A DNA stretch of 14,526 nt from Falciphora oryzae (lineage: Eukaryota > Ascomycota > Sordariomycetes > Magnaporthales > Magnaporthaceae), in contig JNVV01000119.1 in NCBI GenBank assembly GCA_000733355.1, forward strand, positions 4,546 to 19,071, written 5' to 3'. The notes below the pieces were generated by a model. It searched no databases, was not told the DNA's origin, and saw nothing but the letters and a program-made list of their open reading frames with translations. Made by a program: the position numbers and the translations under genes. Below, in pieces: positions 1 through 14,526 of this stretch; position 1 is the stretch's first letter; each line of letters opens with the position of its first letter.

Positions 1-1073
1 GTACTCAAAGCAGAGGTATTCGATCCATGTCTCGAGCTTGCCCTGTTGTTTCGGGTCTTGGTTCAACTCAAAGGGCCGAGTGAATCCGTGTCGGGCCAGG
101 CGGCGTTTAGCTGCGTCGACGTAGTCGGAGAATGCAGGTCCGGTAACGCCCGATTCATAGCAGTAGTGTCGCTGCCACTGACGCCTCTTTTGCTTATCCT
201 CCCAGTGCTTTTTTAGACGTGACGGGTCGGCCTCGAGCTCGGCCAGCTCCTTTGCTGCGACACGCTCGCTGTGATCACGTTTCATGCGACGCTTCTCCGC
301 CCCAAGGTATGCTGGAAAGCCGCCGTCGTCGTCATCTTCCAAGTCGCGATTGTCCGTCTGCCATCTGCGGAACATCACCCATCTCTTCCATTGCTTTTGG
401 AATACCTCCCAGGGGTAATCTGAGCTGGTCCCGCCACCCCACCACCAACGAAAATAATGGCCCTTCCCAATGGCATCCAGCCAGGGCCGCAGCAGCTCCC
501 GATACTTGTCGGGATTCCCGGGGAAGTAGTAGGAGGCGTTGATTGGGCCCCTTGGGAAGGACGCGGAGACGTCGTCGAGGAGATCGATTGGGTAGAGCGG
601 GCGGCCGCCGTCCTTGACGAGTTTGTCGTATGCCTCCGCCTCGTCCTCTCTGCTCGACTGTAGAATGCTTTCTTCAAATCCTGGTCCCCCGGGGGTCGGT
701 GATCGAGATGGTAGTGATCGGGCGTTGGTGCCACCGGATGATGCTTCTCGCAGGCGGGCGTCGAGTTCGTGGAGATCAAGTGGTCGCGAGTGCGCTGCGG
801 GATTCTGGGCCAGGGTTCGTCTTCGAGCCCCCAAAGATCATTAGCGAACAAGAAACGATTCTAGGAAGCCGGAGCAGGGGAGGAAGCCTACGTAAATCTT
901 TCCGCGAGTTGGTCACGCTCATCCTTTGAAAGCTTGTCCCAACCGTCGACTGGAAGGTCGAAGTCGCCATCGGGATCACGGTTTTTCTGGATAAACGTGG
1001 CGAGGGCCGCATCGCTCATTGAGGCGATGTCGCCTACAGTCAGCGTTAGGGTATCCGGCTCGTGGGAGGCCAT
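1..1073 (-). CDS. Uncharacterised fungal protein, 3'-truncated by window edge (2 exons)
   Basis: Proposed model is complement(join(<1..820,892..1073)), with 334 codons visible. Exon 1 starts at ATG 1073-1071 and gives 60 residues, beginning MASHEPDTLTLTVGDIASMS. A 71-nt intron (GT at 891-890, AG at 822-821, with GCTAAT as a plausible branch site) joins in phase to an exon that stays open to base 1. That exon encodes PLDLHELDARLRE, then DGGRPLYPIDLLDD, a Trp-rich YFRWWWGG segment, LEDDDDGGFPAYL, a Lys/Arg/Trp-rich RRQWQRHYCYE stretch, RRLARHGFTRPFEL and WIEYLCFEY. From memory, these phrases mark a hypothetical family repeated many times in Fusarium- and Colletotrichum-type genomes. I know no assigned function and see no signal peptide or catalytic motif. 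The charged, Trp-rich sequence suggests a soluble intracellular protein. The C-terminus lies outside the window. A longer upstream open frame to 1235 exists, but its sequence does not look coding, so I chose MASHEP. Confidence 0.75.
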
Positions 1074-1290
1074 TCTGTCGTCGATGGCAATGCCACGGGA
1101 GGAGATGATTGATGCGGGCCAGAGACAGAGGCCTGAGCTTGTCGGGTTTGGACATGTGGGCAGTAGTGGGTCCACATCAAACCAAACTTGACCATTCCAG
1201 CTGTGACACAAACGCGACCCCTTGAGGCCTGCCAATTAAGTTGGGCGGATAGCCGCTGTTGCCCCTCCAAAAAAGCGAGGGGTTGGCTGC

Positions 1291-1357
1291 ACGGCGCACT
1301 AACATCGCCTACCAAAATGTCCAATGTTTCGGCGCGTGGTTGTTGTTAGTGCGTCGT
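1291..1357. repeat. Imperfect inverted repeat, 14-bp arms, 39-bp loop
   Basis: The left arm ACGGCGCACTAACA (1291-1304) pairs with the right arm TGTTAGTGCGTCGT (1344-1357). It matches at 13 of 14 positions, including a perfect 10-bp core. It lies in the divergent promoter region. It could be a pair of oppositely oriented protein-binding sites or chance; the sequence alone does not decide. Confidence 0.55.
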
Positions 1358-1454
1358 GCTCGTTTTGCTGTGCCGCAAGATGGTGTTGCCGAGAGGTATA
1401 TACGTGGAGGTTGGTCTGGCAGCAAGCCGTGCCAGGTGCTTGTGTTTAACCTAC

Positions 1455-1538
1455 CATCTTGTTTCCGTGCTTCTCGTCAGGCCGCCATCTTGTTTCCATT
1501 CTTCCCGTCAGACTAACATCTTATTTCCGTTCTTATCA
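1455..1538. repeat. 31-bp tandem repeat, about 2.7 copies, directly upstream of the kinase gene
   Basis: Copies start at 1455, 1486 and 1517 with an exact 31-bp spacing. Each begins CATCTT(G/A)TTTCC, continues with a CTTC/TTCT-rich stretch, and the first two contain CGTCAG. The third copy is partial and ends about 17 bp before ATG 1556. The repeat therefore sits in the core promoter or 5' leader. The pyrimidine-rich composition is typical of fungal leaders. Confidence 0.8.
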
Positions 1539-1555
1539 AACACGTAATGTTAGCC

Positions 1556-4500
1556 ATGGCAGACACGGATCTCATTGCTCGTGTGTACCCCTATGCAGAG
1601 AAGGACCCTGGGGAAGTGCCGGAAGCCACCCTAGACGCATTCAAGACCAGTCCGGGCTATCTTCCTCCACAGGTTCAGCTTTTCGAGCGGCGGTCTGCAT
1701 CTCGCCATGAGCGACAGTCGACAGAGCCACTCGGCACCCAAGACGTTCCGGTGCTCGACACCCTTCCATACGTCGAGCTGAGGCTCAGCGACACTCCCCG
1801 GTTCCGCTCTGGGTTCATTTTCGGCTACGGCCCAAACAGCGACGTCGTTCTCCCTAATAACCGGGGCGTCGGGTACCACCACTTTAGCCTGACTTTCGAC
1901 GATAAGAAACGGCCCATTGTGAAAGACTGGGGTTCTCTCAATGGCACCGAGGTCACATACAGTGACCAAGGACATGGAATGCGACACCGATTCCAGTGGA
2001 TCGTCGGCGGGCACCGCATGCCTCTGAAGATGCAGCCCATCGTTATTACCCCACGAGCCAAGCCCCCAGTCCGGCTGCAGATCGTCGTCGTTCCTCACAA
2101 CGTAGCGTCGCCGGCTTACATCGACAAAGTCGACCGGTTCCTTCAGAGCACACCAGCCACTGAAGATCTGCTCAGCAGTCTCGAGTTTCCGAGTCGTCCA
2201 GTCACCGAGCGGCCTACAGGAGCCCACACGCCGGGCACAGGCGCGATCCATCTCCGTAAACGGCTCGGCGAAGGGTCATTTGCGGTTGTAACCCACTATT
2301 GGAACGTCAGCACCGGAGAGGAGTATGCCCTCAAGAAGCCTTCTGAAAAGGCCGTTCGCATGCGCCGAGTCCGTGTTGAGAATTGGCAGAATGAGGCTCA
2401 CATCATGAACCTCATATCGCATGTCAGTATACCGCCGTCCCCGTCAGTATCCCGTGCTTTGCCCTGATATAAAATATACCTACAGCCTCACGTCGTGAAG
2501 CTTCTCGGGTCCGACTTTACGCAGGGCCAACCACGACTACGCCTGGAATATGTTCCCGGCGGATCCTTAGCCGATAAACGCAGAATCTCAAGTGCCGAAT
2601 GTTTATCAATTCTCCAGCAATGTCTATCGGCCCTGGAGTATCTGCACGGGAGCGACCCGCCGATTGTGCATCGAGATATCAAAGCAGAAAACATCCTGGT
2701 CCAATACCGAGACAGAGACGGCATCTACGTCAAGTTCGGTGATTTCGGGCTGGCGAGGGACTATGACAACATGTCCACCATCTGCGGCAATTTCCCGCAC
2801 CTTGCACCTGAGGTGTACCAGAACCACCAATATACCGAGGCTGGTGGCGAGGGCAGAGTCAGCTATACCGAGGCTGTCGATGTTTGGTCCCTTGGTGTCG
2901 TGGTGTATGAATTGCTCTGCCCTCTTCCACAGTTCAGAGACCAATACATATGCAGCGGGACTGCATGGGCCAGAAAGCTCATCAAGACGTTCAAGAAGGA
3001 CTTCGAGGAACGGCCTGACGAGCTGAGAAGATTTATTCTGGAAGCAATGGTGGTCTTACGGCCGGAGCAGCGGTGGCCGGCCAAAGACTGCCTCGCAAGA
3101 GCAGTGCTTCTACCTGTTCCAGCCATGGACCAGTCCGAGACCGCAGTGGCGGTTTCATACGCCAGCGATGATGAGCGGTCGACGATTCGCAACCAAGCAG
3201 AGCCAAGCATGGCCCAGGGCCTCGAGACACCTATATGGCAGCCGAGCTCGTCCGAGTACTCGACCCTGTCGATCGATGCCGGCAGATACGACAGATCAGG
3301 CGCACCCACCCCTCGGGCTTCCGTTCTAGCATCAGCGTCGAGCCGGAAGAGAGCAACGGTGTCAACACCTTCGTCGTCCGGAAGACACAGGAAGCGCCGA
3401 GGGCACGGCAGCAGCAGCAGCAGGGCCGATTCTACCTCCCTCCAGCAGCGAGGCCGCTTCCTCGGGAACCGTACGCAGGCATCGCTGCCTCCCAATGCAT
3501 TGGAGGACAACGACCACGACGAGGACGTTTGGGGCCAGGAAGAAGACGACAATGCCCGCGTCGAATTGCCTTACGCAGTCGACCATCTTTCGACTTCGCC
3601 TGTCGGCCAGGAGGTTGAAAATCAGATGCAGGCTCTCCTCCAACATCAGGTCGGCAACGGAGGGGCCGATCAAGAAGCAGTCGATGCAGCGGTAATGCTG
3701 CAGAGATTAAACCAACATGGAATTATGACTCCTTTCGAGTCTATGGCCAGAACTAGTGGGGAGGCGGCCGCGTCAACCGTTGCCAGCAGCTACGATGAGC
3801 AAGATGCGCAGGGTGACGGACTAGGCCACTTCCACGACAACTACGTCCTTGCGCCACCCGGGCAAGACAGCGGTGGCGGCTGGTATTGGGGACAAAACAA
3901 CAGCGCCGGCGTCGACCATTCTTGCGGTGAAGACCCTATCGAACCCGCAAGCCAAGTCGATTCCCAGCCAAGTGGACTTTTCAGCTCTGGAGATCCACTC
4001 AACCCTCTACTCGTAGGGTCTTCTGTTGCCGCATGGGGTGGGGTTGGACAAGAATCGACTGCCCGAGCTGCTCCCTCGCACGCCTCCGTCGTGGAGGAGG
4101 ATGATGATCTTCCCCCGCCATGGAGCCCAGCCCACCCGCCGTTGTATGCGCCTGATACGCAGTATCCCTGCTCCCCTAGCCACAGCCAGCACTCTAAGTT
4201 CCAGCTAGCAACATATTCTTCAAACGTCATGGCTCATACACATTCCCCCCACTCCCCGGCTGAGGAGGAAGTTGAGGATTGCGATGATCAATCATCAGGA
4301 CACTTCACCGAGCCAGCTCGTCGCGTCGGGCATCCCGATGTCGCATATGGATTGGGCGGCAACGTCCAGTCGCTGGATGACGACTCGCACGAGGGCACCG
4401 CCGAAGAGCACGAAGAAGCAGATTGTGGTGTCGGCCATCACACCCTACCTGAACCTCCCAGTGCGGGTGCCACGGCGAGCCCTGCGCCCCTACTCCCCGA

Positions 4501-4768
4501 AGGATACCGAACGTTCCATTTCGAGGGCAACTCGCATGCTGTAGTATACAGACCGAGCGAGAGAAAAGTCAACGCTCTGCAACTCGTCGGCATACGCAAA
4601 ATCTCACGAAATTCGCTCAAAATGTGCTTTGTTCGGCATCCAATGATACGGACCGAGAGGCACAGCCGACCACACGTCGCCGGGCCCTACGTGGACTTTG
4701 ACGACGCCCGGACCATCTGCAAGAGCTTTCACATATCCACGGCGGTGATAGATCAGATGGAGACAGCG

Positions 4769-4802
<34 letters not shown>

Positions 4803-5195
4803 CTGGTGGCGGTGGCGGATACGCTTTGCAAACCGAGAGTGGGGAGGCGGAAGCCGACCCGGCTCAGGCTGTCCAGCGCAGGAAACGAACCACGTATAGC
4901 GCTGCTGATAAAGCCATTCTTGAAGCCGCGTTTCACAACAACCCGAAGCCCGACAACCGGATATACTGCGAGCTTGCGGAGCAGATTTCGAAGGACTCGA
5001 GGCAGGTTCAGGTAAAGACAGCCCATCTGCTTCAGTTCACTTGTAGCCTCCCAGTCCCCCGAAGCTCCCCTCTCAGAGCGTGCACACCTCGCTATCTAAT
5101 CACAGTAGCGTTTCGCTGACTACCATGGCGACTTTTCCGCGCCATCTTAGGTCTGGTTCCAAAACCGTCGGGCCGAAGAAAAAAAAGAGAGATAG
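1556..5195 (+). CDS. FHA-like/Ser-Thr kinase/KilA-N-like/homeodomain fusion protein (3 exons)
   Basis: Model is join(1556..2422,2486..5011,5151..5195), about 1145 aa. The start is ATG 1556 (GCCATGG context); an in-frame ATG at 1547 adds three residues. An FHA-like domain spans about 72-150 (FGYGPNSDVVL, DWGSLNGT). The kinase spans about 231-500: glycine loop GEGSFAVV 238-245, Lys260 in YALK, Glu280, HRD 351-353, Lys355, Asn358, DFG 375-377, APE 396-398. All catalytic residues are present, so it should be active. A low-complexity, probably disordered region runs to about 960. Residues 962-1040 resemble KilA-N/APSES domains (RKVNALQLVGIRK ... YVDFDDARTICKSFHI). An Ala10/Gly tract follows. Residues 1088-1145 form a 58-residue homeodomain beginning RKRTTYS and ending VWFQNRRAEEKKER, with Leu16, Phe20, Trp48, Phe49, Asn51 and Arg53 kept. 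Intron 1 (63 nt) joins ISH to PHVVKLL in phase. Intron 2 (139 nt, GTAAAG...TTAG, CTGAC branch site) cuts between VQ and VWFQNR. A nuclear, Chk2/Rad53-like signalling regulator is inferred. Confidence 0.88.
4771..4800 (+). repeat. (TGC)10 microsatellite encoding a polyalanine tract
   Basis: Ten perfect TGC units, read as GCT (Ala) codons in the kinase-homeodomain frame, give ten consecutive alanines (nine GCT and one GCC) followed by a short glycine run. The tract links the KilA-N-like segment to the homeodomain. Its length is likely to vary between strains without breaking the frame. Confidence 0.9.
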
Positions 5196-6074
5196 GCTTT
5201 TTGAATGTTAAAACGTGGGAGAAGGATGAACTAGACGGAGAAGACGGTGGGTAGTAGGAGCGACCCCTCACGGACAATTTCACCAACAGATAAAGACACA
5301 GTGGAAGCACAATAAACAGGGGAGAAGGTGGCTGACGATAGTGACGGTCCAGGGACGAGAGCAGGAAACAGAACAGGAAACCTACGAAAACGCTGGCAGT
5401 CGGCTCCAGATAGTACTAGACCCGGCTCTCGGGACGGTGGTGGTCTTGGCCCAAATCACGGCAACCGCGTCATCATCACAGCCAACAAAGCCAAAAGGAC
5501 GGCCTATCCAAGGATCGTGCCATTAAGACCCAGCACACAGGCAGCGGCAGGAAAAGGCGGAGGACCACGTCGTCCAATTCGCAAACGCTGAGGTTATCGA
5601 CATCGGCATCCTGCTCCAGGCCAGGGTCTCAACTGGCATTGTGCCTCTGGGGAGCGCACGATTCTTCCCTTCCGAGAGCCACCGACATGTCAAATTGGCG
5701 TAATTGTCCGCTCTCAGGCAAATCGTCCACGGCTTCCTCCTTCGACCGGCCAGCAACAGGGCGTCTTTTGATGAACGTGAACGTCACGACTGGAATCTTC
5801 CTTAGGTCCGGCAAACTCGACAACCTTTTCTGCGAGCTTTCCAAGATGTACGCTTTCGGGAGATTACCATTCTGCAAATTTGCTCGCATCCTTGCCGTTC
5901 CCGCACATGGCGAACATTTCTGTATTCTGTGATATCGACGACTGATTGTCTATATTGGTGGAAGAAGCTGATGTAACTTGACGTGGCCCGCGCCGCAACC
6001 ACCTGCTTGCGCCAGATGTTCGCACGTTGACATCCCGCAGGCACCGCGACCTTGTCAAGTGATTAGAGCCATTT
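5196..6074. other. 3' flank of kinase gene; no assignable gene
   Basis: An AATAAA hexamer at 5311-5316, about 116 bp after the kinase stop, is a plausible poly(A) signal and suggests a short 3' UTR. One plus-strand frame from 5341 to 5699 is interrupted by a single TAA at 5527 and contains protein-like text (VIDIGILLQARVSTGIVPL), so it might be a gene remnant. A minus-strand frame at 5889-5629 is also open. None has a start context, intron structure or family resemblance that I can defend. Confidence 0.4.
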
Positions 6075-6507
6075 TCATCCCCACGCCTTGGCAGAGCAAC
6101 GGCAGCGTTCGCCGACGCTCCCCTCGGGCCGACGACGGAGAAAAAGCCCATAGCCACCCCAGTACTCGAAGACACACTGGCAGGTGTACCACCAGAGGGG
6201 GCAGCCGCCGGTGCGAGACGGCGGTCATGTGCTTCCAGCCGGGGCATTTGCGCGGGCCGTAATCAGCCTCGTAGATGCGCTGGGCCAGGCAGGTGTTGAC
6301 GTCGCTGTACTTAGTCTGGCAACCGCCCCCAGCCTGCCAGGTCTTCGACGCAATGATGGACATGCTGTCGTCACCGCCGCTGCTGGCGGCCAGGTTGGTG
6401 GCCTCGGCCGTCGCCTCGGGCGAGGCCGCCGACTCCTCGGCGGCCGGCGAGGGGAGTGCCCTGGCGGGGCGGTGGAGAGGGTTGCGAGGAGGGCCTTAAG
6501 TCTGCAT
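6075..6507 (-). pseudogene. Broken small secreted cysteine-rich protein gene (frameshifted)
   Basis: A leader-like CA/CT-rich sequence ends in a good start context (CCAACCATG, ATG 6507-6505), but that frame stops after three codons (TAA 6498-6496). One frame over, the same bases read LKALLATLSTA, a typical signal-peptide core. About 30 nt later a third frame takes over: PSPAAEESAASPEATAEATN, then WQAGGGCQTKYSDVNTC, then EADYGPRKCPGW near 6240, with strongly GC3-biased codons. From about 6210 the protein-like reading moves again, to WWYTCQCVFEYWGGYG, ending at TGA 6077-6075. The pieces together look like a secreted protein of about 130-140 residues with at least six cysteines (effector-like), broken by at least three frame changes. 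Too little space and no proper splice sites argue against introns. Assembly indels are the alternative explanation. I do not recognise the family. Confidence 0.45.
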
Positions 6508-7852
6508 GGTTGGTGCTGCTTGTAATGGCTTGGAAGCTGGACCGGTGGTGGCAGGAAACCTGTTGAGATCCTTGGAGCTTGGTTGGGAAAGCTTGAGTGA
6601 CGGTGGTGAAAAGAATTTTCCCACGGAAACACCCGCAACTGTAGGAGCCTTGCGGTCGACTTTGGCATTCCACGGCCACGATCCAACGTGTCCACAAGCG
6701 AGGCTGGCGGCGCTGGACTATCTGGGGCATTAGGTACGCCCATTGAAGACGATGCAAGATATACCGCCCCCAAGTGAGTATTCGTCGAAGTCGGGCTCCA
6801 CTTCCGCGTCCTCCAGCACATTTGCGGTCACCTCAGCGCACTCCATTTCTTGCCCTTCCACTTTATCGGAGCGGAGGGACCGAACTAACATCGGCCCACA
6901 CAACCAGCCCCTGCGCAGGTGGTAGCAATTCCCATCGGGTTCTGGACCCTCGCGGCAAAGTCGCCGCCGGATAGGAGCAGAAAGACGTATCCATTGCCAT
7001 ACCGAACGGAACGACGACCCCGGGTTGGAGAAGAGCTGGGAACAGCCGACGCTGCAGCTTGGATCCATTGTCCGTCTCCACAGGCCAAACTCGCCAGATG
7101 ACTCTGATCCTTGAGGGCCCGAACAGCGGGCTGGGCGACGCTGACAACACGGAACCAGAACCGCCAGAGCACCGGAGGCAGACGAGCCGGGAAAGGGCGT
7201 CTGAAGGGCAGGATACATGCTCTCGACCGAGGCGCCACTGCGCGAACCGCGCGAACCACCCGAACGAACATTTAAGGTGCTGCCGCGGTCGGGAGAACCG
7301 CGAGAAGAACCGACCTGGGCGCCGCGACCGAACGGCGGCCGCTCTCAGAACCGGAGAAGGCATGGTACCTGCGAGTCGCTTGCACCTACGGGTCGCTTGC
7401 ACCGAAAGGAGCCTTTCTGGTTCTCAGTGGCGTCAGGAATTTTAACCTGCTACAAAATTAGCATGCCTTGGAGAACAAGGCTTAGTGGGAGGGGGGGCGA
7501 CCTACCGACCGGGCAAGGAGGTCCAAGAAGGGCATGAAAAGGGACAGCTGGGGAAAAGGTAGCAGACAACCGGAAGGTACACTGCCAGCCAAATCCTGCC
7601 GAGGAGGATGCAGAACAGAATCCAGTGGGAGAGAAAAGCGGACGAGCCCAGGACATTCCTATGTGGTGCAGGGGAACGGGGAAGCGGAACAGTACCACCA
7701 CCAACTTACCCCTTACCGCAACGGTCACCGCATTGCGCTCGACTCCCCGCCCTCCGCGATTACTTCGCACCCGTGACAAAGCCTACAAGTACCCTGTTAA
7801 GGGCAAAGAGATTATTATTCGTTCATCGATAGACGTTGGAAGGCGCACAAGT
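6508..7852. other. Long stretch without an assignable gene
   Basis: Open frames occur on both strands, the longest on the minus strand at 6821-6225, 7218-6730 and 7402-6863. They overlap one another and none holds a consistent coding reading. Some minus-strand pieces look protein-like, for example EGQEMECAEVTANVLEDAEV around 6860-6800, which ends at a stop at 6732-6730, and GYVFLLLSGGDFAARVQ around 6980. They lie in different frames and could be an eroded gene. The bases directly before 7852 are the 3' flank of the NLR gene; the minus strand carries AATAATAA about 35 nt past its stop, a possible poly(A) signal. Confidence 0.4.
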
Positions 7853-10800
7853 TTAATCGCAAGCCTCAGCCGAGAACCCAAAGATCAGCACGCGTCCGGA
7901 CCGGCAGGCAAGAGCTAAGGCTAACCCCGACGGCGCTACAGCCGAACAAGCCGGGCGGTACTCGCGCGGCAGCCACAGCCAGTTCTGCGAATTCCGTGAG
8001 ATCCAGACCCCGTCGGAACTGACACCGTAGCCTCGGTACTGAGGCTTTTGCGGCTCCTGCGGCTTTTGAGCGTTTTGACGCCGTTGAGAATCCGGCGAGT
8101 CAAAAATAGTGACCATTCCAATATCCGTGAAAAGAGATGAGCCGGTAAGATCAAAAGAGAGATTGTAGATGATTCTGCCAATGTTGAGCGTTTGCAGGCA
8201 GGCGCCGTTATGCACGTCCCAGATTTTGACGGTTTCGTCGCGCGACCCGGAAGCGATGCGGCTATTGTCGTGCGAGAACGCTACCGACCTGACCAAGTCG
8301 CTATGGCCCTCGAATGTCTGCAGGCAGGCGCCGCTATGCGCGTCCCAGATTTTGACTGTTTCGTTGCGCGACCCGGAAGCGATGCGGCTGCTGTCGTGCG
8401 AGAACGCTACAAAAAAAACCCAGCCGTTATGGCCTTCGAGCGTTCGCAAGCGAGCGCCGCTATACGCGTCCCAAATTTTGACGGTTTCGTCGCGCGACCC
8501 GGAAGCGATGCGGCTGCTGTTGTGCGAAAACGCTACCGAAGAGACCCAGCCGTCATGGCCTTCGAGCGTTTGCATGCGGGCGCCGCTATGCGCGTCCCAG
8601 ATTTTGACGGTTTTATCGTCCGACCCGGAAGCGATGCGGCTGCTATCGTGCGAAAACGCTACCGAAGAAATCCGGCGTTTATGGCCCTCGAGCGTTTGTA
8701 AGCAGGCGCCGCTATACACGTTCCAAATTTTGACGGTTTTATCGTCCGACCCGGAAGCGATGCGGCTGCTGTCGTGCGAGAACGCTACTGATCTAACCCA
8801 GTCGCTATGGCCCTCGAGCGTTTGTAAGCAGGCGCTGCTATGCACGTCCCAAATTTTAACAGTTTCGTCGTTCGACCCGGAAGCGATGCGGCTGCTGTCG
8901 TGCGAAAACGCTATAGAGAAAGCCCAGCCGTCATGGCTTTCAAGCGTTTGCAGGAGGGTACCGCTATGCGCGTCCCAGATTTTGACGGTTCTATCATCCG
9001 ACCCGGAAGCGATACGGCTGCTATCGTGCGAAAACGCTACCGAGCTGACCGAGTCGTTATGGCCTTCGAGCGTCTGCAGGCAGGCGCCGCTATGCACGTC
9101 CCAAATCTTAATAGTTTTGTCGTCCGACCCGGAAGCGATGCGGTTGCTATCGTGCGAGATCGCTACCGAATTGACCGAGCCGCTATGGCCTTTAAGCGTT
9201 TGCAGGCACGCGCCGCTCGCCGCGTCCCAGATTTTGACGGTTTCGTCGCCCGACCCGGAAGCGATGCGGCTGCTGTCGTGTAAGATCGCTACCGAACCGA
9301 CCGAGCCGCTATGGCCCTTGAGCGTTTGCAGGCACACGCCGCTATGCGCGTCCCAGATTTTGATGGTTTTGTCGTCCGACCCGGAAGCGATACGGCTGCT
9401 GTCGTGCGAAATCGCTACCGAAAAGACCGAATCGCTATGGCCTTCGAGCGTCTGCAGGCAGGCGCCGCTATGCACGTCCCAAATCTTGATAGTTTTGTCG
9501 TCCGACCCGGAAGCGATGCGGCTGCTGTTGTGCGAAAACGCTACTGAAAAGACCCAGCCGTCATGGCCTTCGAGCGTCTGCATGCGGGCGCCGCTATGCG
9601 CGTCCCAGATTTTGACGGTTTTGTCGTCCGACCCGGAAGCGATGCGCCGGCTATCGGGCGAGTACGCTACTGACCGGACCCAGTTGCTATGGCCCTCGAG
9701 CGTCTGCAGGCACGCGCCGCTATGCGCGTCCCAATCATCTCCCATTACTGGCTCGGTCGTAATCCATTCTGGCACCTCGTGTTGGAATAGCCCCTTTACA
9801 ATACTGCGGGATGGGCTGAACACAAGCGCTGAACCGTATGTCTGGAGGGGGCTGTTTTCGATTGGTCCTTTGTGGTATAGGATGAATCGGCGCGCATCGC
9901 GGACTAAATCGTTCAATCCAGATGCGCCTGCTCGCCCCTGCAGTGGAGTTAGGACAGTATTTAGACGTAGTAGCAGCTAGAACGTACTTGTAGCAAGCGC
10001 TCGAGTTTCTGTACCGACACGATTCCCTTTGTCATGCTTCGGAGAAGGCTAAGTGCTTCGAGCCAGTAGAGATATCGGTCCTGCAGGAACGTATGGACGG
10101 CGCCGCCGTCCTGGAGGTCTTCGTGTAGTCCAGACGCCATTGCGCTCCCCTTACGATAATGTTAGAAACAGCGTAAAGGGGTATTATAAAGGGGCTTACC
10201 TGAGGTGAAGCGCCAAGTTTTGCAAACGGGGAAACTCCTAGGAAACCTAAGAGAAGGCTAAACGTCTGCAGCGAGAAAAAGTATAGCATTCGCAGAAAAA
10301 TTCCGACCTTGCCGCTCTCTTTCACGTGGTCCTTGCCGCTCTCCTCCAGGTGGTCTACCCAGTAGACACACGAATAATCTGCTGCCGCTAATGGATCTTG
10401 CTCAGGCTGCTTGGCCTGGTCGATGGGAGTTCCAGGGGCGCGCAGGCCGTAGATATCCCGTCGTAGCGTCTTTTCCATGACTTGCAGTGACTGCGTGAAG
10501 ATGCCGCGGTGGGCAGCTGCAGAACCAGAGGGGAAGATGGTTGAGGCGGCCTTTCCTACCAGGTAGTCCTTGGCAGACTGGTGCACGAAGTAGATAGTTT
10601 CGTCGCGAACTGTGAGGAAGGAGCCGCTCATCTCGACAATCTCCCGAATATCTTCGGCTCTGCTGAAAATCGCGTCTGGAAGTCCGGACACTGCGCCTAG
10701 CTCAAGCAGCCGAAGCGGGCGGTAGGCCAGCGTGGCCGCCGAGAGGACCAGCCGACAGTACTCTGTGTCTGTGTCTGTGCTCGCCGGCAGTTCAATCTGG

Positions 10801-11972
10801 TCTATCATCCGCGCATACAGATCATCAAGGCCTTTTGGTACGTCGTCGACCACCTGTCGCACCTTCCAGCGGGGAACTTTTTTGAGTTCCTGGACGACGA
10901 GGGCCACCCAAAGGAACGTTCCCTCGGCTTTCTTGCGGAGGACCTCTCGAACATGATCCTGCAGTGAAGGGTCGTTATGCAGAGATTGGAGTTGCGATGT
11001 CCTGTTGGCAATGTAAGCTTCCACAGCCTGAGATACGGAATCTGCGTTCTCCTGCTCTTCCAGGCTGAGGACCAATTGCGAAGGTTCTGGCAGTGTACGC
11101 GGTCCGATGTTATCCCGGCTAGAAATGATCCACTTGACGCGCGGCAAGTTCGCTTCCTCGAGAACGAACTTTAAGAGCTTGTCTTGGTCCTGCACGCATT
11201 CGTCGAGAGCGTCGATAATCACGATGATCTTCTCCAAGCTCGGATCACGCAGGATACTCAAGCAGATGTTGCACAATGCAGCCCATGCTTCCGTATCCCC
11301 AAAACGCGGCTCCCCGGTGTCCTTGAATTTGTCCCGCACGTGCGAGCAAAAGGACGGCTGCTGCCTCACGACCATGTAGATGAGACCGCGCAGGACAGCA
11401 TGAGCGTTACTGAGCTTGGGAACGGTGGCTTGGCAGAAGAAGAAGGACAGGAGCGTCTTGGCTCCGGTATCTGCGAGTTTCGTGGCAGGGCGTAGCTGGT
11501 CGATGATGCCGCAGAGCAGCATAGTTTTGCCCTTGCCCGGAGCGCCCTTGACCCAAAGCAGCTGGCTGTCTTCGTCGTCGCGCCAACGTTGGTAGTCGGG
11601 ATGGTCGAGGATCCAGCGGCACAACTCCTCGAGGGCGGCGCCTCTTGTTTGATGGATGCCCGTCCGGACGTCGTGCGGATCGGTCACTCCTAGGTAGTCG
11701 AGGAAGCGATCCTTGCTTTGTCCATCTTCGTGTTGGACGGTTCTACGTCAGATTGGAATTGCTAAAAGCGTAGGTTTGCGGTCAAACGTGCCTCCGGCAT
11801 GCTGATGCATGTGATAGGTTCTGGAATTATACTATGTTAATACCGCTTCTTGAAGTAATACAGTCGTCGACATGTATTCTTACGGATTATACGAGGGGCC
11901 AGCATGCATGGTCGTTGCTCGGACATCGTAATGCTGGCGATCCATGGCCGGGAATGCATCAGGCAACGCCAT
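7853..11972 (-). CDS. NLR protein: NACHT ATPase with WD40 repeats (HET-E/NWD type, 4 exons)
   Basis: Model is complement(join(7853..9937,9988..10149,10200..11742,11884..11972)), about 1292 aa. NACHT features: P-loop GAPGKGKT (96-103), Walker B IIDALDEC (205-212), sensor KWIISSRD (233-240), and a winged-helix-like part containing SGSFLTVRDETIYFVHQSAK. Two 50-nt phase-0 introns (GTAAGC/CTAAC/AAG and GTACGT/CTAAC/CAG) lie in the NACHT-WD40 linker and restore the family phrases DRYLYWLEALSLLRSM, then DLVRDARRF. Twelve near-identical 42-residue WD40 repeats and one degenerate repeat follow, then a tail ending FGFSAEACD. Such fungal NLRs oligomerise on ligand binding and trigger incompatibility or immune cell death. 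Exon 1 (29 codons) is the weak part: it has an AAAATGGC start context, a strong GTAAGA donor and an in-phase CGTAG acceptor, but it encodes no known domain. A larger N-terminal HET, Goodbye or lipase-like domain was not found upstream. The divergent HeLo gene is the likely effector partner. Confidence 0.88.
8087..9724 (-). repeat. 126-bp WD40-coding tandem repeats (12 near-identical plus 1 degenerate)
   Basis: On the minus strand, 42-codon units begin at 9724 and follow every 126 bp to 8213. The degenerate thirteenth unit is at 8212-8087. The consensus unit reads HSGACLQTLEGH, xxxVxSVAFSHDSSRIASGS, then xDxTVKIWDx. Differences concentrate at the three residues after GH, the residue after the next Val, the residues around GSxDxT, and the end of the unit. 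In HET-E-family NLRs these correspond to the known fast-evolving ligand-facing positions (about 10-12, 14, 30, 32 and 39 of the repeat). Because 126 is divisible by 3, the opposite strand also stays open over a long distance. Confidence 0.93.
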
Positions 11973-12617: not shown

Positions 12618-13424
12618 ATGACGGGCGTCGAAGCAGGAATTGGAGCGGCGTCTGGGCTAGCCAACCTCTTCAACACGGCTATAACCTGGTTCGACTACGT
12701 CCTTGTCGCCAAACAGGCGGCTCCGCGGCTGCAGTCGCTGCTTGTAAAACTTGACGATGCGCAGCTGAGGCTGACGCGCTGGGGCAAGGCGGCGGGCCTC
12801 ACAGGCCCGCGAATTGAAGACGAGGAGTCGCTGAAGAGCTCGGGCTCATTCCGGCTCGACGAGGAGCAGGAGAAGCAGGCGATCCGGACGTTCCAGACTG
12901 TCGCGACCATCTTCGAAGAGTGCCAGAAGCTCTGTCACGGCGAACGCAACGGCAAGAATGACAACGACCCCAGCGTTAAAGAGAACGAGATCCGCCCGTT
13001 CGGCCCGGTTGGCGTGAATTGGAACCCTATGCACCGCTATCTTCATGAGAAAATGCAGGACATCGTCGAGGGGCGTAGAAACAAGGTCTCAGTCCCGCAG
13101 CGCGTCAAGTTCGCCATCTACAAGGAGAGGCATCTCGAAACACTGATCCGGAAAATCAACGACCATATCGACGAGCTGTACAAGATCTACACCCCGCCTG
13201 CGAGCGAGCAGGACGTGCTCGGCAAGGCTGAGTTAGCGGAGCTCCTTCAGGTCGTGAAGGAGTTGGGCCTCGCTTCCGAGCGCGATCCCCTCATAAATTG
13301 TCACACGGAAGAACCCGTGGACCTAACTAGTCGGCATCACGAGTCGGCCTTACGGAGGTTCGGAGACCCGCATAGGCGGTCAACGGCCCCAAGGCCAAGC
13401 GGTGAAGGTTGGAAGGCAGTGTGA
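12618..13424 (+). CDS. HeLo-domain protein, HET-S-like putative cell-death executioner
   Basis: Single exon, 268 aa, start ATG 12618-12620. Residues 1-60 contain GLANLFNTAITWFDYV and LDDAQLRLTRWGKAAGL, the N-terminal pattern of HeLo (prion-inhibition-and-propagation) domains such as that of Podospora HET-S. Further features are PMHRYLHEKMQDIV (about 138-151) and RVKFAIYKERHLETLIRKIN (about 162-181), followed by HIDELYKIY. The all-helical HeLo fold thus covers about 1-220. In HET-S this domain becomes a membrane-inserting toxic form when templated by an amyloid C-terminus. Here the final 45 or so residues are basic and His/Arg-rich (SRHHESALRRFGDPHRRST) and show no recognisable HET-s-type repeat pair, Gly/Asn-rich amyloid motif or RHIM-like motif. 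The gene is divergent from the NACHT-WD40 NLR, as expected for an effector-receptor pair. A TIR element starts 75 bp after the stop, so the native C-terminus may have been altered. Confidence 0.85.
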   Translation: MTGVEAGIGAASGLANLFNTAITWFDYVLVAKQAAPRLQSLLVKLDDAQLRLTRWGKAAGLTGPRIEDEESLKSSGSFRLDEEQEKQAIRTFQTVATIFEECQKLCHGERNGKNDNDPSVKENEIRPFGPVGVNWNPMHRYLHEKMQDIVEGRRNKVSVPQRVKFAIYKERHLETLIRKINDHIDELYKIYTPPASEQDVLGKAELAELLQVVKELGLASERDPLINCHTEEPVDLTSRHHESALRRFGDPHRRSTAPRPSGEGWKAV

Positions 13425-13462
13425 ATCATGTACTCGATACTTCGCACGGATCACAAAGGGTC

Positions 13463-13470
13463 TATATAAA
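13463..13470 (+). promoter_or_regulatory. TATA-box-like TATATAAA followed by a CT-rich leader
   Basis: A perfect TATATAAA lies 38 bp after the HeLo stop and is followed by a pyrimidine-rich stretch (from about 13480) that looks like a fungal 5' leader. It may serve a transcript reading into the inverted-repeat element. Promoter activity is inferred. Confidence 0.3.
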
Positions 13471-13498
13471 CCCTGCCATCTCCTATGTCTTCCACGAG

Positions 13499-13593
13499 AG
13501 ATTCCTTCTTCCTCAAGCATCTCTTGAGCCCATAGAAAGATTATCTGCAATCTAGAGATTCTTTCTCCAAGCCGTCTTTGACCCCTTGTTACA
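13499..13593 (+). repeat. Left terminal inverted repeat (95 bp or more)
   Basis: It begins AGATTCCTTC and ends CCCCTTGTTACA, and pairs with 14432-14526. The only difference is T at 13509. Inside it lies a small palindrome, CTCAAG-CATCT-CTTGAG (13512-13528). The true outer edge may lie further left, towards the HeLo stop codon. Confidence 0.85.
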
Positions 13594-13709
13594 TAAATAC
13601 TGCGGTCCAGACTTTCTTTGAGTAAAAAGCAAGTGGAAGCCATCATCGTACCCCTTTGCCCTAATATTCACGTTAATGTTCGCATTGCTTACATACGCAG
13701 AATAACAAC

Positions 13710-13823: not shown

Positions 13824-14431
13824 TTGTAAGCGGCACAAGATTGATCATCCTGTTTCGGTCAGTGCCTTGGCCTGGAGACATTGTAGGCCACTGCCGCGGT
13901 TGGGCACGTGCGGTCTGAAAACCAGGGCGGGTAGTATAGCTTTGTCGTACAGAGGCTGGGTAGGTGCGGGAATTTTGCAAAGAATCTGGGTCCTAGTGTC
14001 GCCGGGGTCAATCCCGTCTACGACCAATCGTCAAGCTCTTAGTTTAGGCCGTGACACCAGCAGTGGCAGCGTGACGCGACCCGATAGCGCCCGCCCGCCT
14101 GTCGCGCCCAGCCTCAAAGGGCCCTTGGAGGGAGTCGGCGCCTAGGACAGCCGCCAAGGAGGAGCAGCAACTGGGCGGCGGCGCGGACCAGGAAGCCAAG
14201 CCGGCGCTAAATTCTGCTCAAGGCGAGGCAGTAAGCCAAACTAGGGGCGCTCCCCCAGACCCCAAGGCACGACAGCCCCATCCAGGCAGGGCAGCGGGCA
14301 GCGTGGAGGGCGATTTCTCATGATCGAGCTTCCCATTTCCGGCCGCACATACTATACATCCCTAAACTGAGCGAATTCGCAGCAGTGCTAACGGCTGAGA
14401 ACTATCGAGGCGGTGGTTGCGTGGTAGTGAG

Positions 14432-14526
14432 TGTAACAAGGGGTCAAAGACGGCTTGGAGAAAGAATCTCTAGATTGCAGATAATCTTTCTATGGGCTCA
14501 AGAGATGCTTGAGGAGGAAGGAATCT
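14432..14526 (-). repeat. Right terminal inverted repeat (95 bp or more, cut by window end)
   Basis: This is the reverse complement of 13499-13593 with one mismatch. Similarity stops internally at 14432, where the next bases differ from the left arm. The outer edge is unknown because the match reaches the last base of the window. Confidence 0.85.

Follow-up and report, generated by a model that had tools for sequence, protein, structure and literature searches.

A predicted FHA-kinase of Falciphora oryzae with a KilA-N/APSES-like segment and a C-terminal homeodomain

Gene model and domain organization

The window analysed here is a stretch of 14,526 nucleotides from Falciphora oryzae, located at C117:4546-19071 in the 50-Mb assembly. 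Its forward strand carries a gene whose predicted product joins an FHA domain and a Ser/Thr protein kinase to a KilA-N/APSES-like segment and a homeodomain. The features of this gene, in window positions and with residues (aa) of the spliced protein, are as follows.

1556-5195, + strand: gene model of three exons, stop included; the spliced open frame has 1,145 codons
1556..2422, + strand: exon 1, from the start ATG to codon 289, with the N-terminus, the FHA domain and the start of the kinase
1817..1954, + strand: FHA domain, aa 88-133 matched; Tyr in place of the GR-motif Arg and Gly in place of the SxxH Ser, with His and NGT kept
2249..3100, + strand: Ser/Thr protein kinase domain (aa 232-494), split by intron 1, with its catalytic K, E, HRD, N and DFG
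2423..2485, + strand: predicted intron 1, 63 bases, GTCAGT...CTACAG, with a branch-like CTGAT
2486..5011, + strand: exon 2, 842 codons, with the remaining kinase, the linker, the KilA-N/APSES-like domain and the homeodomain to its residue 46
3101..4489, + strand: linker, aa 495-957
3344-3400, + strand: run resembling a bipartite nuclear localization signal, RKRATVSTPSSSGRHRKRR, aa 576-594, by pattern match only
4490..4774, + strand: KilA-N/APSES-like domain, aa 958-1052, with a profile match over 971-1044
4877..5011, + strand: homeodomain, first part, Pfam positions 1-45; 28.5 bits in exon 2 alone
5012..5150, + strand: predicted intron 2, 139 bases, GTAAAG...TCTTAG, with a branch-like CTGAC, splitting homeodomain residues 46/47
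5151..5195, + strand: exon 3, the 14 codons VWFQNRRAEEKKER plus stop, beginning V-WFQNRR
5151..5186, + strand: homeodomain, last part, with recognition-helix residues W48, F49, Q50, N51 and R53

The initial annotation had described one continuous gene in which an 842-codon central exon links a catalytically complete kinase to a homeodomain at the extreme C-terminus, with a KilA-N/APSES-like segment between them and a last exon of 14 codons supplying the WFQNRR of helix 3. As far as sequence can tell this description holds, and for the KilA-N/APSES-like segment it is supported by a hold-out profile and a predicted fold. The frame is open over all of its codons and both introns run GT...AG; the open frame around exon 2 extends over 883 codons, whereas 200 windows simulated with a first-order Markov model reached 388 at most. 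Kinase and homeodomain lie in one open exon, since both pass their Pfam cut-offs in unspliced exon 2 alone (Pkinase 106 bits, Homeodomain 28.5 bits). The predicted splicing is supported by the preservation of both splice sites in a second copy of the gene on contig C104, and by three Gaeumannomyces proteins (P0001-P0003) that read RQVQVWFQNRR or RRVQVWFQNRR across the exon 2/exon 3 junction. The spliced protein ends in WFQNRRAEEKKER, with the stop codon at 5193-5195, and its N-terminus, encoded by exon 1, is also present in aligned relatives.

A Pfam scan of the spliced translation gave Pkinase at 148.3 bits against a cut-off of 31.7, Homeodomain at 60.2 bits against 22.9 with all 57 profile positions covered, and FHA at 22.9 bits, barely above its cut-off of 20.7; KilA-N was not matched. 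In an alignment of 100 rows (the window protein, the C104 protein and P0001-P0098) the catalytic Lys, Glu, two Asp and Asn are invariant among the rows with a residue at the position. The solved kinases nearest to that of the window are DCLK1, MARK and Snf1, with Rad53 ranking lower. Profile and predicted fold both identify the FHA domain, whose model best matches Rad53 FHA1; when the FHA part of a relative, P0014, was compared by sequence with solved structures, it gave a weak match to MDC1 (E 0.0074). The FHA Arg and Ser are phosphothreonine-pocket residues in Rad53. In the window protein Tyr stands at the Arg position; C104 and P0001-P0005 have Trp there and P0006 has Cys. All 8 rows of this group (window, C104 and P0001-P0006) have Gly for the SxxH Ser. 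Outside the group the Arg is found in 24 and the Ser in 80 of 92 rows. Because the catalytic residues are universal in the alignment and the FHA Arg occurs in only 24 of these outside rows, the kinase is the part that stays conserved, while the phosphopeptide pocket of the FHA domain has been let go.

The segment between kinase and homeodomain gave no Pfam match in scans of the spliced protein and of the segment itself. KilA-N was matched at E up to 10 by 8 of 19 aligned members of the family, P0076 lying above the Pfam cut-off. Homology of the window segment to KilA-N/APSES domains is indicated by a match to the hold-out (intermediate) profile and by its predicted fold, for which Mbp1 was the best and the PCG2 DNA complex the third-best match; the structural alignment with 1bm8 shows 11% identity. 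Between this segment and the homeodomain, at about 4770-4830, a GCT-type microsatellite encodes a poly-Ala and then Gly-rich spacer, the length of which differs between the window and C104 copies.

The homeodomain has the WFxNxR helix and retains the DNA-contact positions R5, W48, F49, N51 and R53; WFQNRR is found in all five of the homeodomain-bearing full proteins seen (window, C104 and P0001-P0003). By-eye comparison with the genome's other homeodomain places found no donor. At C2:1818668 an intron apparently lies inside the homeodomain, about two codons off, and C21:363511 has RQVQVWFQNR in common and differs in the remainder. A tblastn search with the C-terminal part against plasmids gave no match.

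Copies of the gene in the genome

The second complete copy, on C104, is a frame of 1,165 residues (8 of them X from an N run) in which WFQNRR is kept. Window positions 1-11645 and C104 (L028, L029 and L034) match in collinear segments, forming a single segmental duplication that includes the adjoining NLR gene. There is purifying constraint overall between the two intact copies: the ratio of nonsynonymous to synonymous divergence (dN/dS) is 0.46 over 1,078 codons, 0.38 in the kinase and 1.74 in the first 64 codons, with enough changes for the ratio in the FHA part, kinase, linker and whole protein. Synonymous divergence (dS) is 0.09 over the first 64 codons, peaks at 0.35 in the FHA part and falls through 0.17 in the kinase and 0.11 in the linker to 0.015 in the KilA-N segment, with 0.06 in the homeodomain. 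Because dS ranges so widely between the FHA part and the KilA-N segment, the mosaic pattern along the kinase gene suggests gene conversion, and the C-terminal dN/dS ratios (4-5 changes) were therefore set aside. In the C104 linker (L028) a stretch is locally duplicated beside a short N run, which may be an assembly joint.

A further copy, at C17:363375-366532, contains stops and has LTR-like (long terminal repeat) sequence inside it. Partial copies lie on C4 and C78 and at C17:119593 and C17:551218; in the C4 homeodomain no continuation into helix 3 was seen by eye at the usual place.

Relatives and phylogeny

A whole-protein search, with search words from the first 500 residues, gave 1,546 proteins, the best 120 of which were listed. 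Three of these 120 (P0001-P0003, all from Gaeumannomyces, "G." below) carry a homeodomain in the precomputed domain annotation, and a Pfam scan confirmed FHA, kinase and homeodomain in each. Annotated as hypothetical proteins, they share their main domains with the window protein, and P0001 and P0002 also have the KilA-N segment. The relatives referred to are:

P0001, G. avenae RB594_008443: 79% identity over 99%; FHA, kinase, KilA-N segment, homeodomain
P0002, G. hyphopodioides RB599_010271: 72% identity over 100%; FHA, kinase, KilA-N segment, homeodomain
P0003, G. tritici RB598_000192: 68% identity over 84%; FHA, kinase, homeodomain, no KilA-N match
P0012 Tolypocladium paradoxum (named RAD53), P0014 Phialemonium, P0037 Beauveria and P0076: KilA-N-bearing FHA-kinases

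The 188 C-terminal residues, used as a separate query, brought up 17 proteins, for which a kinase domain was listed only in P0001-P0003, and a second C-terminal search aimed at shorter proteins gave 20 with no kinase domain listed. Beyond P0001-P0003, the matches to the C-terminal query had listed coverages of 23-59% and no kinase among their listed Pfam domains. The window's complete homeodomain with WFQNRR resembles those of homeodomain transcription factors, but here it is attached to a kinase. Likewise, its KilA-N/APSES-like segment resembles the APSES factors Mbp1 and PCG2 in fold and profile, while being divergent in sequence and attached to a kinase.

The nearest wider group is one of fungal FHA-kinases in which FHA, kinase and linker are followed by one or two KilA-N-like domains (P0012, P0014, P0037 and P0076). 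The window protein, with FHA, kinase and at least one KilA-N-like segment, has the features of this group, but no homeodomain was found in those four examples. In the alignment P0009, P0012, P0037, P0047 and P0078 have a common FTEANYENGSYLAP-type tail at the position of the Gaeumannomyces-type homeodomain, and P0004 (G. tritici) has a different tail in which the KilA-N segment is present and the homeodomain absent. Some of the listed relatives bear the automatic names RAD53, DUN1 or checkpoint kinase. Like Rad53, Chk2, Dun1 and Mek1, the window protein has an FHA domain before a CAMK-type kinase, with FHA fold matches to Rad53 and Mek1; it differs from them in its replaced FHA phosphate-contact residues, its lack of an SQ/TQ cluster and its additional C-terminus of DNA-binding type.

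A tree of the FHA-kinase part was built from 28 rows (the window, C104 and 26 of the 120 listed relatives), the Gaeumannomyces-type group being named after identities had been seen. In this tree P0006 of Chaetomium tenue is nested inside the Gaeumannomyces-type set, in a four-row group with support of 100/100. Holding the Gaeumannomyces-type rows together without P0006 was rejected by the approximately unbiased (AU) test (p 0.001; 0.0009 with P0007 counted in and 0.0015 with P0007 removed). P0006 shares 84% identity with P0002 across 586 columns, and the tree path between them is 0.14 changes per column, as against 0.24 between the window and P0002. Judged by these identities, the window would come from Gaeumannomyces or a close relative. 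The simplest reading of these sequences would be transfer of an FHA-kinase between fungal orders. The placement of P0006 may instead stem from contamination or old paralogy, though its long contig of 4.9 Mb speaks against contamination.

The initial annotation knew of no characterised protein with this domain order. That statement stands to the extent that we found no publication with the order FHA, kinase, KilA-N and homeodomain in the open-licence PubMed Central (PMC) literature, where nothing was found either on fungal FHA-kinases with KilA-N-like domains; in the Gaeumannomyces genome paper (PMC11905480) a term search of the main text did not find the words kinase or homeobox. The novelty is limited because P0001-P0003, annotated with FHA, kinase and homeodomain, and the FHA-kinases with KilA-N-like domains of other fungi exist. 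The combination is rare and looks unstudied, with close relatives sitting unremarked in databases.

Possible function of the protein

What the computation shows is the order of the domains, their homology and fold, the catalytic residues, the second intact copy and overall purifying constraint; to these we add by inference the nuclear location, DNA binding, kinase activity and targets of the window protein. A possible role for this protein, which we favour with about even confidence, is that of an accessory kinase of the nucleus, recruited to particular sites on DNA by the APSES-like domain and homeodomain of the same single polypeptide. In favour of it stand the physical linkage of the domains, the conserved catalytic residues, the APSES-like match, the homeodomain contact positions, the constrained C104 copy, the run in the linker resembling a nuclear localization signal and the comparison of tails. 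An apparently active CAMK-type Ser/Thr kinase would be carried by these C-terminal domains, which would address it to chosen sites in the nucleus, where it could phosphorylate chromatin or transcription proteins, or itself. It belongs to the fungal FHA-kinase family, some members of which have one or two KilA-N-like domains; the homeodomain of this lineage lies at the position of the FTEANYENGSYLAP-type tail of five aligned relatives. More tentatively, there could be a whole class of fungal kinases with their own DNA address, in which an active core moves between species and copies while C-terminal tails are gained, lost and swapped; changes of tail (first KilA-N, second KilA-N, homeodomain) would then re-target the kinase to new genomic sites. 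Kinases normally reach DNA via partner proteins. With a natural, intact kinase fused to two domains of DNA-binding type, local and site-specific chromatin phosphorylation could be tested directly, and relatives with different tails would form a natural series of re-targeted versions. The analysis also draws out fungal FHA-kinases with KilA-N-like domains that are filed under automatic names such as RAD53.

The initial annotation had framed the protein as a shortened checkpoint pathway, and this framing fared poorly. A DNA-damage checkpoint kinase of the Chk2/Rad53/Dun1 type, its pathway shortened by its own DNA-binding domains, would read phosphothreonine through its FHA domain and act at the damaged or regulated site. 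The order of FHA and kinase, the modelled likeness to Rad53 FHA1 and the automatic names of some relatives fit such a role, but the FHA phosphate-contact Arg and Ser are replaced and DCLK1 and MARK are nearer than Rad53 among solved kinases. SQ/TQ motifs, whose clustering N-terminal to the FHA domain we take to be a Chk2/Rad53 trait, are no commoner than expected (7 in 1,145 residues versus 7.9), and one of them (aa 61) precedes the FHA match. The genome has four other places with FHA next to a kinase (C7:212457-213416, C7:1029364-1030820, C70:17315-18274 and C21:450280-451924), none of them identified as the checkpoint orthologue, and the several broken or partial copies are unlike a core checkpoint gene. 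Since the pocket is lost, SQ/TQ is not enriched and other FHA-kinase places exist, a Chk2-like checkpoint role is judged from sequence to be unlikely, and we consider both this role and its phosphothreonine-reading mechanism quite improbable. An artefact, in which a kinase gene and a homeodomain gene were wrongly joined in prediction or assembly, or a decaying relic, is scarcely credible: copies with stops do exist, dN/dS exceeds 1 in the N-terminal 64 codons and the splicing is predicted, but one continuous exon holds kinase and homeodomain, the C104 copy is intact with both splice sites, three database proteins share the main domains and overall dN/dS is 0.46.

The APSES-like domain and homeodomain could mainly bind proteins or anchor complexes, the kinase being recruited to transcription or nuclear-envelope complexes instead of reading DNA; this seems rather unlikely, given that the homeodomain retains its DNA-contact residues and that Mbp1 and the PCG2 DNA complex are among the best matches of the predicted fold. 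We are more doubtful that this is a horizontally spreading and turning-over accessory gene of conflict type (incompatibility, defence or selfish), and equally doubtful that a kinase with an exchangeable DNA-binding tail acts against or for mobile or foreign DNA or rival nuclei. Such a gene would suit the presence in one genome of two intact copies alongside several that are broken or partial, the nesting of P0006 (100/100, AU p 0.001), the different C-terminal tails of P0004 and P0001, the NLR that neighbours both the window copy and the C104 copy, and the distant NACHT match near the C78 fragment. However, a single segmental duplication explains why each intact copy has an NLR next to it, the closest further NLR copies lie apart from the kinase gene and NACHT matches are common in this genome. 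None of the 26 genome matches to DUF3435 (Starship captain) is on C117, C104 or C17, although C117 (19 kb) and C104 (46 kb) are short contigs and partly unreadable.

Neighbouring genes and repeats

Downstream of the kinase gene the window contains the following features.

7853-11747, - strand: NACHT-WD40 gene of NLR type, with NPHP3_N/NACHT at 10032-11747 and 12 WD40 stretches at 7853-9976
12618-13421, + strand: open reading frame with a HeLo domain (Pfam 99.6 bits)
13298-13596 and 14430-14526: LTR-like dispersed repeat, the second copy being partial, reversed and at the end of the contig

The NACHT part of the NLR gene has 80 matches in the genome. A two-gene cassette of kinase gene and NLR was considered and rejected: the pairing on C104 belongs to the single segmental duplicate, stops interrupt the NLR match there, and the contigs that hold the closest further NLR copies (C9, C40 and C12) have no close copy of the kinase gene. 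A C-terminal fragment of the family on C78 has a distant NACHT match, at 24% identity, some 4 kb away (the two places being C78:86520-87920 and C78:92193-92695); with 80 matches in the genome, this may be chance.

The C-terminus of the HeLo open reading frame looks repeat-derived, because its last part overlaps the dispersed repeat of about 298 bases that starts at 13298. For this repeat 41 matches were listed of 547 candidates, 40 of the 41 at 97-100% identity, and it recurs within the stop-containing kinase-gene copy on C17.
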